DNA of 64,000 bases. Origin: Haliotis asinina (lineage: Eukaryota > Mollusca > Gastropoda > Lepetellida > Haliotidae). Under the pieces are notes generated by a model. That model was given only the letters and a program-made list of their open reading frames with translations. It had not been told where the DNA came from and searched no databases. The position numbers and the translations under genes were made by a program. Positions 38,532 to 47,500 of the stretch are shown piece by piece (the stretch's first letter is position 1; every line of letters begins with the position of its first letter). Where the stretch lies: assembly GCF_037392515.1 (NCBI RefSeq), contig NC_090282.1, positions 56,134,843 to 56,198,842 of the forward strand. Direction: 5' to 3'.

Positions 38532-41500
38532 CTGTTGTGGCAGATTATAATTATTAAGTACAAGACTACAAATTTTGCCAAACATTTACAAAAGTTCAAA
38601 TCTAGCGTTTTCAAGGCCTACCTGATTGAAACGTCGTATTTGCCGTCTTCCCCATATCTATGTTCGCAAATGCTTCGATTTTCCCAGATGACCTGAAATT
38701 TGATTAACTTGAAGGTTAAAACATAGAAGCATGATCTTAAAACAATCTGTTGGAATATACACCGTCATAAAAGACCATACGATCCACCTGCGCTAAATAA
38801 TGAGCTTCTCAAAAGAAAATGCCTATCATGCATTATCAGACACAGGAAGTTTCTTTTCAGTTCCAATCTTACACAAAATATCAATTTCGCTTTGGCCAAC
38901 GCATCACTGGTGACAGAAAGTACGTAAAACATAACACTCTTCACATCCACAAGAAATCGTAACGTATTATTAGCAAATAGTCATCATATTAGATGTCGGA
39001 AGAGGGGTATGCAAAGTACAGCAACTTGATTGTCTCAAAACGTGTGAAATGTAAACATGCTGCTCGACTTTAATGCCAACTTGACTAATAGAAAGTTGAA
39101 ATAACTCCTTTCGTCGTAAAACCTTTATGCATCTTAATGTGGCACTTGTGTTTGTTCAGGTGGGTTTACCAACTGAAAGGAACGGGAGATGTTATTTTCA
39201 CTAAACAGTATCAGACCATCAATGTACCTGAAGTGTAAGTTGTTTGTTTCCTTTTGACTAGGGCAGTACAAATACAGAAACAGTTACCTCTCGAGTGGTA
39301 AACCCTGTTGTCTAAACTTCCTACGGTTAAATCATAAGTAGACGGGATATATGAGGAAGTCAACCACTTCACTTATTGCTTTCACTGTGGTCAGACGACA
39401 TTTTGCTTTCATTTTTGACAAGACAGATAAAGACAGATGTTCACCATGTGTCCTTAATAACGTCTCAATGAATGACCTTCGCCCTTACCTTTGTCATGGG
39501 GATAGTAGGATACACAAACTACAATGCTATGACATCACGTATCACATCACGTACCAACACACGGCCTTCAATCAGTCTGATGACAGTCCCGTATTGGTCG
39601 TCATCACAGCTATCTGTTTCCATGTCAGGACCTGAAAAAGAAGGAACGTTGGAGTATAATAACGTTAGGACATGATGTATATTTAGACTGATACGGTTAT
39701 AACTGGAACATTCCGTTCACATTTTCTAAACATGTAAGCAAGAATATCATGTTCGACCGGAACTCGTGTCCCTGCATTTACATACTGACTGGCTCACGTC
39801 CATCCAGCATGTAAAGAATACACATTGATACTGTACTGTACATATCACTGACCTCGCTGTACCTCATTCCTACACTGATTGCTTCAGTTCCATCTGGCAG
39901 GTGTGAGAGACACCTGATGATGTACTGTACATATTACTCACCTCGAAATACCTCCATGCCAATACTGATTGGTTCAGTTCCATCTGGCAGGTGTGAGAGA
40001 CACCTGATGCGGTACCTACATTCCTACACTCATTGGTTCATCGCCATCATGCAGGTGTGAGAGACACCTGATGCTGTATTGTACATATTACTCACCTCGT
40101 TGTACCTCCATGCCAATACTGATTGGTTCAGTTCCATCTGGCAGGTGTGAGAGACACCTGATGCTGTATTGTACATATTACTCACCTCGTTGTACCTCCA
40201 TGCCAATACTGATTGGTTCAGTTCCATCTGGCAGGTGTGAGAGACACCTGATGCTGTATTGTACATATTACTCACCTCGTTGTACCTCCATGCCAATACT
40301 GATTGGTTCAGTTCCATCTGGCAGGTGTGAGAGACACCTGATGCTGTATTGTACATATTACTCACCTCGTTGTACCTCCATGCCTATACTGATTGGTTCA
40401 GTTCCATCTGGCAGGTGTGAGAGACACCTGATGCTGTATTGTACATATTACTCACCCCGCTGTACCTCCATGCCTATACTGATTGCTTCAGTTCCATCTG
40501 GCAGGTGTGAGAGACACCTGACGCTGTATTGTACATATTACTCACCTCGCTGTACCTCCATGCCAATACTGATTGCTTCAGTTCCATCTGGCAGGTGTGA
40601 GAGACACCTGATGCTGTATTGTACATATTACTCACCTCGTTGTACCTCCATGCCAATACTGATTGGCTCAGTTCCATCTGGCAGGTGTGAGAGACACCTG
40701 ATGATGTATTTTACTCACCTCGTTGTATCCATGCCTATACTGATTTGTTCATCTCCATCTGGCAGGTGTGAGAGACACGTGATGCTGTATTGTACATATT
40801 ACTCAGCCCGCTGTACCTCCATGCCAATACTGATTGCTTCAGTTCCATCTGGCAGGTGTGAGAGACACCTGATGATGTATTTTACTCACCTCGCTGTACC
40901 TCCATGCCTATACTGATTGGTTCATCTCCATCTGGCAGGTGTGAGAGACACCTGATGATGTATTTTACTCACCTCGTTGTATCCATGCCTATACTGATTG
41001 GTTCATCTCCATCTGGCAGGTGTGAGAGACACGTGATGCTGTATTGTACATATTACTCACCTCGCTGTACCTCCATGCCTATACTGATTGCTTCAGTTCC
41101 ATCTGGCAGGTGTGAGAGACACCTGATGCTGTATTGTACATATTACTCACCTCGCTGTACCTCCATGCCTATACTGATTGCTTCAGTTCCATCTGGCAGG
41201 TGTGAGAGACACCTGATGCTGTATTGTACATATTACTCAGCCCGCTGTACCTCCATGCCTATACTGATTGCTTCAGTTCCATCTGGCAGGTGTGAGAGAC
41301 ACCTGATGCTGTATTGTACATATTACTCACCTCGCTGTACCTCCATGCCTATACTGATTGCTTCAGTTCCATCTGGCAGGTGTGAGAGACACGTGATGCT
41401 GTATTGTACATATTACTCAGCCCGCTGTACCTCCATGCCTATACTGATTGCTTCTGTTCCATCTGGCAGGTGTGAGAGACACCTGATCCTGTATTGTACA

Positions 41501-44500: not shown

Positions 44501-47500
44501 CCGTCTGGCAGGCGCGGATGATGATCCACGAGTAACACATCGTACTGTCCGTTTGCACCGTATCTGTACCAATTGCATGTTCCGTTGTCCCAAAGCACCC
44601 AAATGTACGCTACAAAAGGTCGCATATGATTTTGTTAAATGCAACATGCCCCTAACAATAAAACACATGCCTTCGTTCAAAAACAAAAACAATCACACTC
44701 GAGTCTAAATGTAAGCACATTGGTGTTTTTGTTTCCTTTGGATCATATTACTAAGGTTATACATAGTTTGTTCTGAATTTGGTTCCTAACAAAAAGTCTG
44801 CTTTACACATAAAGAGGAGAATATGCTACACCTCATGGTTAAGATTAAGGATTTATTCATGACCGGTGTGTTTTTGGTACTTTCTCAGTTAAACAATTAT
44901 GACAGTCCCCATACCTCCCTCAATGGCATGGTTGACGATCGTCCCTATCCCCTCCGTGTCTTCGTTCTTCCACGCCCAGTCGGGGCCTCGGGTCACTCTC
45001 TTCCCAAGGGGAGGGAGGTCATGTGACATGTTGACGTTGTCGAATACATCCGTAGCCCAGAAATTCATGTCAAGATTATCATTGACCTTCTGCCTAACAG
45101 CAGCCTGGTTGTAAAAATGTACCGACTTAATACCAAAATTGGTCAATTCATTATATTCGAGAGCGGTGGAGTGGCCTTGTGATCGAATGCCACACATGGA
45201 CACAATACGTGGAGCCCATTTCTGGTGTTCACCGCCGTGATATTGTTGAAATATTGCTAAAACTAGTGTAAATCTAAACTCACTTACTCACTCATTATCG
45301 CGAAGCCATTAAGGGCATTATATATTCATGCCTTTTGATGTATATCATAATAAACATGAGTAAAACCTTTATGCCTAAAACACTCACTGCTCACAAAGGG
45401 GGTGGATAGATAGATCTGTGATCTAAAAACTAAAATGAATCAACCCTAAAAATATGTGTTGCATCGTCATGGGGAAACAATTGCATTTCTGGGGACATTT
45501 CCCATAAATATACACCATTTGCAACTTATGTTTAAATATTCTTGGACACCATCTGTAAGATCTGACAATGTTGAAATCTGAGACATACGCAAATAGCAAG
45601 AATATGTTACTTTATTTACTTTTTCTGACTTAGAAAGATCCTGGCAAACGGCGTCAACAATGAGATCAACGTATTTTACTCGTGCTACTCGCAAGGCAGG
45701 GTCCATTTTCACAAATTTGATGATTTGTGCAGCGAGGATCTGAAAAACATAAATTCAATTTTACCCCTCGTTTAAGAGATTATTGGTTCATTTCTCTACA
45801 GGCCTACAATGTTTCAGCTAAGATTATGGACACAGAATTATGTACTCCCTTTTCAATATAAAAAACACATCTGGAAATATGACAGCGTTAATATTGCTGA
45901 GAAATGGATTACTGTTTTCAGAGATTGAATGTTATAAAATAATGTACTTTGGAAGATAATGACCATATTACAAATAGAGGAATTCCCGATAAGACTAACG
46001 CTTTTTGGAACGATGTGCTTATTAGTTGTTTTTTTTTTGTAATACAATAATAAATAGTGTACAACTCTCGAGATTTAAGAAGGTGTTGTACTGTATAACA
46101 TAACAACCAAACCACGGCTTACTCACTTGTATCCTTTGATGGCTGCATATTGTCTTGACATCGTTAACCACCAAACCACGACACATAGCAGCTATTGACT
46201 CCATAAAATTCTGAAGTTTAGAAAGTACAGTGACAAGTTTTAAATGACCGAAGACGTAAGCAACACAGCTTTAAATAAACAAAGCAACAAGAGGTCAACA
46301 GAAAACGACAAATAACCCTGCCCCCACAGTTACCTAAAAGTCCAAATGAATAAATGAATATATATATATATATATATGGCATCTATAATTTTGGCATGTA
46401 TATATATATGTGCCAAGAATATAGATGCCAAAAATCCACACACAAATCCACACAAATAGCGAAAACCACCTGGGGATCTGTTTGATATATCTGTCAAGCT
46501 ATCTGTTGACAGATGTTTAGCGTTTTTTACTTGTTTTTGTTTCTGTATGTGTGTGTGTGTTTCGCTCCGGAAACAATTCCACCCATTTCTGAGACTAAGT
46601 CCAGACTGTTTCCATGGAAATCCAGGAAATATAAATGCCAAAAACTTTAAATAGCAAAAAAGTATAAAATAAAAGTATTTTAAGTGAGTTGGTTAGTTGT
46701 ACGAAGTTATAAGCAACAATCCAGCTGGGCGGGGAACACCAGGAATGGGCCTCACACAATGTGCCCATGTGGGGAATCAAACCGGAACCTTCGGCGTGAC
46801 GAGCGAACGCTTTAACCACTAGGCTACCGACATTTCCCCCGATTATTTCAAGGTCACTATGATATATAGTGGAAGCCCTCAAAGCCGCATTTAGATTATT
46901 GCACATAGGTTTTACAATGGAATATTAATCTATAAATCATAAAATTAACCTTTTGTACATGTCCATGCGGTACAAATATGATTGGGCTGACCACACGTTC
47001 CGTTATGGGGTTTATCATTGTCTGTGCCAGTGTTTCCGCAAAGTGGTGGAATCCCTGCATCGAGAAACGTGTGCAGTTCTTACACAAAACTCATAAATGG
47101 TCAACTCATTGACTTCTAATCTAATGCTTATAGTCTGTTTGCAGTGAAATCGTACCGAGTAATTTCATTTCAACCAAAAAGGTCAATCAAATAAGTTGAG
47201 ATGATAATTATGAATCCTCATAATTTTACCTTGTCAACTGCACATTTAAAACTCAGAAGTTTATTCAACTTAGGATAACAGTTGCTTAAGAAGCGATCAT
47301 AGTTCCGAATCGCTGTTATTGATATTTACCTGTTTGTCCTGTACTTGTTCACGCTTGAAGGCTGTTATGCCATCTGTGACGATCACCATCCGAGGCGGAA
47401 CTTTCAGGTACCCACCGAAATCGCAAACACCTCCTGCTTAGGAATGTAAATATGTATCAGTTATGATGCTCTTGTTCCGCTAATCACTACCGCACGTCCT

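Follow-up and report, generated by a model that had tools for sequence, protein, structure and literature searches.

A minisatellite built from an exon-intron boundary in intron 13 of an abalone gene, probably neutral and spliced out whole

The window analysed here, a stretch of 64,000 nucleotides from the abalone Haliotis asinina (NC_090282.1, 56,134,843 to 56,198,842), contains a minus-strand gene, gene C, with vWA-like, MIB/HERC2 and WWE stretches, and intron 13 of this gene holds a tandem repeat made from the end of the preceding exon. The question that this locus raises is what dozens of exon ends lined up behind a real one amount to; the initial annotation had suggested that they could serve as in-frame mini-exons or as competing donors. 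The array, which lies within intron 13, consists of 53 tandem copies of a segment that joins the end of exon 13 (42-50 nt), the donor and some 40 intronic nt, and among the 24 paralogs examined, tandem repetition of the exon end occurs in gene C only. The array is probably a neutral, boundary-spanning minisatellite, of the kind termed a 'mirage' in amphioxus, which would have been duplicated locally and would be spliced out whole.

The repeat was delimited by Tandem Repeats Finder (TRF) as a 90-bp unit present 50.5 times with 95% matches (40012-44512), and a parse of the minus strand resolves it into the host exon end followed by 52 units, mostly of 90 bp. The first 52 of the 53 rows, host row included, comprise 46 of 90 nt, four of 81, one of 83 and one of 64, with unit 52 as the last row, without a parsed end. 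The decayed 53rd copy was recognised at 39763-39803, where it scores 37 against 31 for the best of 200 shuffles; the count of about 52 units beside exon 13 given in the initial annotation is thus borne out, as are its end of exon 13 at 44463 and its start of exon 14 at 39631. Gene C runs on either side of the array, with exon 12 before it and exons 14 and 15 and the WWE stretch after it (exon numbers are those of the initial annotation), as follows.

44915..45100, minus strand: exon 12, in which the first MIB/HERC2 domain has its first half; the 5' limit is approximate.
44463..44609, minus strand: host exon 13, with the other half of the first MIB/HERC2 domain and a linker; donor GAG/GTGAGT.
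44463-44504, minus strand: last 42 nt of exon 13, which seed the repeat.
39804..44462, minus strand: start of the host intron, then repeat units 1-52; exon parts begin at 44414 (unit 1) and 39893 (unit 52).
43113..44414, minus strand: intact run nearest the host, from the exon part of unit 1 to that of unit 15; each has 42 nt, CAG before and GTGAGT after.
40807..42902, minus strand: block with all 15 donor-dead (GT to CT) units among live ones, from the exon part of unit 18 to that of unit 41.
39763..39803, minus strand: decayed 53rd copy, without a donor and with an in-frame stop.
39632..39762, minus strand: 131 nt of unique sequence that make up the rest of intron 13, including the strong acceptor of exon 14, TTCTTTTTCAG.
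39555..39631, minus strand: exon 14, start of the second MIB/HERC2 domain; 3' end tentative, read from sequence.
38622..38692, minus strand: exon 15, second half of the second MIB/HERC2 domain; 3' end tentative, read from sequence.
35704..35916, minus strand: open stretch of gene C that includes its WWE domain, given without exon limits.

In the consensus unit, an exon piece of 42 nt comes first and is succeeded by 48 nt that run from GTGAGT to CCAG. In most units this piece reads D-G-x-E-x-I-S-I-G-M-E-V-Q-R and is in phase 1 at its start and its end, and the 14-codon piece with its GTGAGT donor and the 48-nt single-unit intron were correctly described from the outset. The claim that each unit is a potential mini-exon fared less well, as a usable 42-nt piece, open in phase 1 and followed by GTGAGT, was found in 31 of the 52 units and not in the other 21, where the donor GT is changed to CT (15 units; GGGCTGAGT or GGGCTGAGA), the frame is shifted (four 81-nt units with a 40-nt piece), the donor is missing (one unit) or the piece has 41 nt (one unit). 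GTGAGT at the exon-end position is kept in 35/52 units, 34 of them with the identical GAGGTGAGT, and CAG stands directly before the exon piece in 51/52. The dead-donor form comprises two changes, and because unit 45 (GGGGTGAGT) carries only the first of them, the sequences suggest that the dead donor arose in two steps and was then amplified. Such damage appears to be tolerated, with 21 of 52 units not usable as exons and apparently one dead-donor change in 15 units. Identity to the host unit is 91-99%, falling to 83-88% in the shortened units 16, 17, 39, 40 and 42, to 61% in unit 50 and to 78% in unit 52. Stops or deletions are found in copies 50, 52 and 53, close to the end of the array away from the host exon, and copy 51 is intact.

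Other origins of such an array were considered. A search of the 1.14-Gb genome with the unit, which scores the best candidates and skips common words so that its counts are lower bounds, gave at least 53 matches, every one in the window, and a dispersed satellite family was rejected on this ground. A spliced-leader (mini-exon) gene array was also rejected, as exons of gene C continue on both sides. The periodic ORF of 945 codons on the plus strand (41684-44521) is not evidence of a protein, since an open frame is expected from a 90-nt unit (roughly estimated, some frame stays open in about 80% of cases).

Splice sites were scored with a consensus matrix that was not trained on this species. 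By this measure the donor GAGGTGAGT reaches 11.6 bits, a score attained by 0.08% of 7,865 GTs outside the array (both strands), and the CCAG acceptor reaches 6.5 bits, attained by 3.9% of 6,615 AGs, as compared with 5.8 bits for the acceptor of exon 13 itself and 12.9 bits for that of exon 14; the splice sites of the units would therefore be usable on paper. The pyrimidine-rich acceptor of the initial annotation, which was to be checked against background, thus ranks among the top 4% of AGs, but one part of its description has to be changed, in that the host codes R-L-P-D-G across CGCCTGCCAGACGGA. The AG of the putative acceptor is exon sequence there, and therefore only the preceding pyrimidine stretch is intronic. 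Recursive splicing at CAG/GTGTCT was rejected, as the AG there has only 0.9 bits.

On these sites it is possible to construct a bank of in-frame mini-exons, in which some units are spliced in and the linker before the second MIB/HERC2 domain varies by n x 14 residues. The 31 units with CAG, an open 42-nt piece and GTGAGT, together with a strong donor and a fair acceptor, speak for this explanation. However, neighbouring units leave introns of 48 nt, as opposed to smallest family estimates of 89 nt for intron 12 (the shortest of eight are 89, 124 and 140 nt, with sibling acceptors and donors predicted as the best-scoring sites near homology ends rather than proven by RNA) and about 106 nt for intron 13 (11 estimates). 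Neighbouring pieces are therefore too close for this family, and pairing would be confined to units further apart. One or both of two further AGs stand 20 and 26 nt before the CCAG AG in 48 or more of the 51 scanned units, and scanning from an upstream branch point would reach them first, although both score poorly (0.9 and -0.1 bits). With the 21 broken units and the stops or deletions in copies 50, 52 and 53 also set against it, such a bank is quite unlikely. Its extended form, in which distant pairing among 31 phase-symmetric mini-exons would give variable 14-residue inserts and hence a tunable protein that varies with array length, is very unlikely.

A precedent for expressed tandem mini-exons has been described in Schistosoma mansoni, where exon 2 of SmPoMuc consists of 27-nt tandem exons that are expressed as repeats (PMC2576457). 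The likeness lies in tiny exons, tandem genomic units and a multigene family, and it counts in favour of a mini-exon bank. In SmPoMuc, however, the units are of about 1 kb with 27-nt exons, number at most about 20 per gene and are of proven expression, as opposed to the 90-bp units of gene C, known from sequence; the 48 nt between neighbouring gene C pieces are also below the estimated family introns.

The variation among the units also bears on their use. Unit-to-unit identity is 97.4% at distance 1 and 94.7% at distance 20 (46 rows), while identity to the host declines with distance (Spearman -0.52, n=52), a gradient that resides in the exon part rather than the intron part (rho -0.60 and -0.14, 45 full-length array units); both statistics assume independent units, an assumption that does not hold here. 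No defect is seen in units 1-15, and the first appear at unit 16 (P 6.7e-5 for random order, again with units that are not independent). The exon part is more diverse than the intron part (0.060 vs 0.026, 46 rows), which argues against a bank of mini-exons.

The sibling genes provide a second line of evidence. Including gene C, 24 full-length matches to exon 13 were found at C3:55.905-56.352 Mb, a region that includes the window (C3:56134843-56198842); 27 of 51 match rows were left out of this count, 24 of them lying in the array itself and three being partial (C2, C8 and C3:55977911). Exon 13 ends at the same phase-1 point in all 24, with 23 GT donors and one GC. This GC donor, AGAG/GCAAGC in L045 (C3:55903226-55906375), is the sole one among the 24 paralogs. 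A second copy of the last 42 nt of exon 13 was found within the next 1.4 kb in none of the 23 siblings, whose self-copy scores (13-20) in no case reach the highest value from 50 shuffles of that sequence (20-28), as opposed to 80 for gene C. Tandem repeats of other kinds occur in this 1.4 kb in seven siblings (L027, L028, L029, L035, L036, L041, L043), none of them made of the exon end by the self-copy test. Exon 14 was located in 11 of the 23 siblings, and their intron 13 is estimated at about 106-668 nt; the unique remainder in gene C is 131 nt. With the copy missing in 23/23 siblings, the array would thus have arisen in gene C alone, or would have been lost in all siblings examined, and this also argues against a bank of mini-exons. 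Taken with the 21 unusable units, the decayed copies and the more variable exon part, these results leave the functional use put forward in the initial annotation unsupported; as read from the sequence, mini-exon function is possible.

Gene C and its siblings, at least 24 genes that share this exon 13, are clustered in tandem and lie on both strands (C3:55904726-56352416); of these, the window contains gene A (~4.7-11 kb), gene B (~16.6-23.6 kb) and gene C. Exons 12 and 13 and then the WWE stretch occur in the same order in the seven siblings checked (A, B and L017-L021).

These observations fit a boundary-spanning minisatellite, which would have been founded by one local duplication after the paralogs split and enlarged by slippage and unequal crossing-over. 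The real exon end is itself the terminal repeat, so that exchange would feed sequence filtered by selection on the exon into nearby units, and distal units, with less exchange, would decay. In expression, the array would be removed within one 4,831-nt intron (44462 to 39632), and the extra donors and acceptors would be by-products of little or no use.

Similar arrays have been described in amphioxus, where 'mirages' are minisatellite-like duplications of exon-intron boundaries, unstable in length, with AG/GT in many repeats and with cluster edges left out of homogenisation (PMC3087553). The same account is given for Adh and TnC, with similar imperfect repeats also in PGBD5 (PMC3902484). Both publications report that splicing is left undisturbed by mirages, a precedent that favours a neutral array in gene C. 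Gene C resembles the amphioxus cases (Adh3, BflGb6/BflGb9, TnC) in that its tandem units span an exon-intron boundary including the splice site, and in that the array adjoins an authentic exon whose end matches the repeat. It further resembles them in that AG/GT splice signals are present in many but not all repeats (31/52 intact, CAG before 51/52), and in that the interior is homogenised, neighbours being more alike, with the edge excluded (copies 50, 52 and 53 decayed). It differs in being found in an abalone rather than a lancelet, in having 53 copies as opposed to 6 and 3 in two BflGb6 haplotypes, and in a unit whose phase-symmetric 42-nt exon piece is flanked by a plausible acceptor as well as a donor. 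A literature search by title and abstract start returned no boundary-repeat array in a mollusc, a result that extends to that search alone, and an abalone gene intron is reported to contain a 27-bp minisatellite whose repeat number varies among individuals (PMC6905558).

Besides the dependence among units behind the distance gradients, several points weigh against a neutral array. The CCAG acceptor scores as high as several acceptors of the family. The 42-nt piece shows 13 changes across the 46 array units that measure 90 or 83 nt (neither the host row nor a three-base change in unit 51 being counted), of which seven are silent in the host frame as opposed to about three expected (P 0.006-0.016 over four transition weights), the same changes giving 1 and 0 in the other two frames. 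The count becomes 8/17 (P 0.02) with the host row and the unit 51 change included, and 8/14 (P 0.005) with the host row in and that change out. Copies 50, 52 and 53, which are outside these counts, speak for neutrality instead, with a further 16 changes, of which 3 are silent, 12 are replacing and one is a stop; the last four of unit 50 lie at the start of a deletion and may be misaligned, and without them there are 12 (2 silent, 9 replacing, 1 stop). The excess of silent changes, confined to the host frame, fits two readings: that units are translated, which favours the mini-exon bank, or that the host exon exchanges with nearby units and hands on only such changes as selection on the exon permits. 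The second is preferred because it also predicts the near-to-far gradient and does not need mini-exon splicing, but it accounts for the excess by inference only. In addition, the 15 units nearest the true donor all keep GTGAGT, and there is therefore no sign of selection against decoys. It has also been reported that repeats of exon-intron boundaries in human genes can form novel introns (PMC2812944). In the Rogers model of intron gain by duplication of an AG/GT segment, a duplicated boundary can likewise give a donor and an acceptor (PMC4974935, PMC2812944); in contrast, every copy in gene C lies in an existing intron.

The many donors have a further possible consequence, namely that the 35 GTGAGT copies compete with the true donor and that copy number tunes output through nonsense-mediated decay. 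Reading past the true donor meets an in-frame TAA after two codons (CGA GGT GAG TAA), as read from the sequence, and use of a repeat donor from exon 13 would therefore lead to nonsense-mediated decay; the 35 copies, 34 of them identical, also favour this attenuator. Human boundary repeats point the same way and likewise weigh against neutrality. A 1995 report by Turri is said, by its title, to concern a human IFI6 (6-16) minisatellite giving several splice donors, and the repeat reportedly has short units without an acceptor. Like gene C, IFI6 has donors repeated after an exon; a difference is that donor use is reported for IFI6, where two downstream repeat units serve as donors in alternative transcripts (PMC4526556). 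The 31-bp variable number tandem repeat of human CBS is c.1444_1467+7(16_21) (PMC2630376), a notation interpreted here as a unit in which the final 24 nt of an exon are joined to 7 intronic nt and which is present 16-21 times, so that the donor is repeated, and a title in the reference list of that paper links the repeat to reduced CBS activity. The CBS unit differs from that of gene C in being shorter, in having by its notation no room for an acceptor and in forming no chain of complete exons. Against an attenuator, the 15 dead donors are scattered in the middle block, a sign of selection in neither direction, and reverse transcription-PCR of amphioxus Adh3 and globin suggests that mirages do not disturb regular splicing (PMC3087553). 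We therefore regard an attenuator as unlikely.

A last explanation is that the array acts as DNA or as structured RNA. The array could, for instance, offer many CAGGTG/CACCTG sites, presumably E-box-like, and CAGGTGTCTCTCACACCTG has 52 matches at no more than one mismatch, 11 of them with CACGTG. Unit stretch 71-87 is invariant in the 46 full-length rows. An invariant run of 17 positions has a chance P of about 0.08, however, and the predicted fold of three units in a row is not better than that of shuffled sequence (z 0.67, with 146/200 at least as good), and both a selected motif and a structured RNA were rejected on these results. A role of this kind is highly improbable, and the neutral, boundary-spanning minisatellite remains the preferred explanation.

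Other features of gene C and its surroundings are given here in their own right. Its domain matches are MIB_HERC2 (E 9.7e-14, joined translation), WWE (E 3e-4) and VWA_2 (E 0.08 only). Elsewhere in the genome, 16 hemocyanin-unit matches lie in two runs of eight; for two of these units the best match among PDB sequences is 3j32, 'Hemocyanin isoform 1', a protein of Haliotis diversicolor, in one case with 858 bits over 421 residues, which points to a gastropod, probably an abalone, and not to amphioxus. Exon 14 (39555-39631) encodes GPDMETDSCDDDQYGTV, without the tryptophan and the DGG-type motif that are present in the 11 siblings whose exon 14 was located, by a pattern seeking such residues; the second MIB/HERC2 domain of gene C may be degenerating. 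A second intronic minisatellite, with a 46-bp unit repeated 28.5 times at 98% matches (36260-37568), lies between exon 15 and the WWE stretch and appears by eye to be unrelated to exon sequence. A peptide resembling FxFTxxxAIFQQYHGG recurs in the window at 45186-45278, 12540, 36068 and 46728, and more weakly at 51643 and 21994 (E 2e-7, 9e-7 and 0.008; weaker 0.06 and 0.11), and because it is a dispersed repeat, the ORF part 5' of exon 12 is probably non-coding. A pair of transposase ORFs is found at 58830-60043 (plus strand), with matches to FLYWCH (E 1.2e-9) and MULE (E 2e-10). Minus-strand ORFs beside it (57210-58615) have, by eye only, the look of a tyrosine-recombinase element, and a Pfam search with three pieces of these ORFs gave no match.

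It has been proposed that new exons and introns can come from boundary-spanning repeats, as has been suggested for the amphioxus mirages (PMC3087553, PMC3902484). With 53 copies, the array of gene C is larger than the known cases compared here (3-6 copies for amphioxus BflGb6, 16-21 for human CBS), its unit places an in-frame piece between two splice signals, and 23 array-free sibling genes are at hand as controls. This system opens the question of whether dozens of identical decoy sites next to a real one are passed over by the spliceosome, and the question of whether a host exon, as the selected end unit, may keep neighbouring repeats 'coding-like' without their translation.

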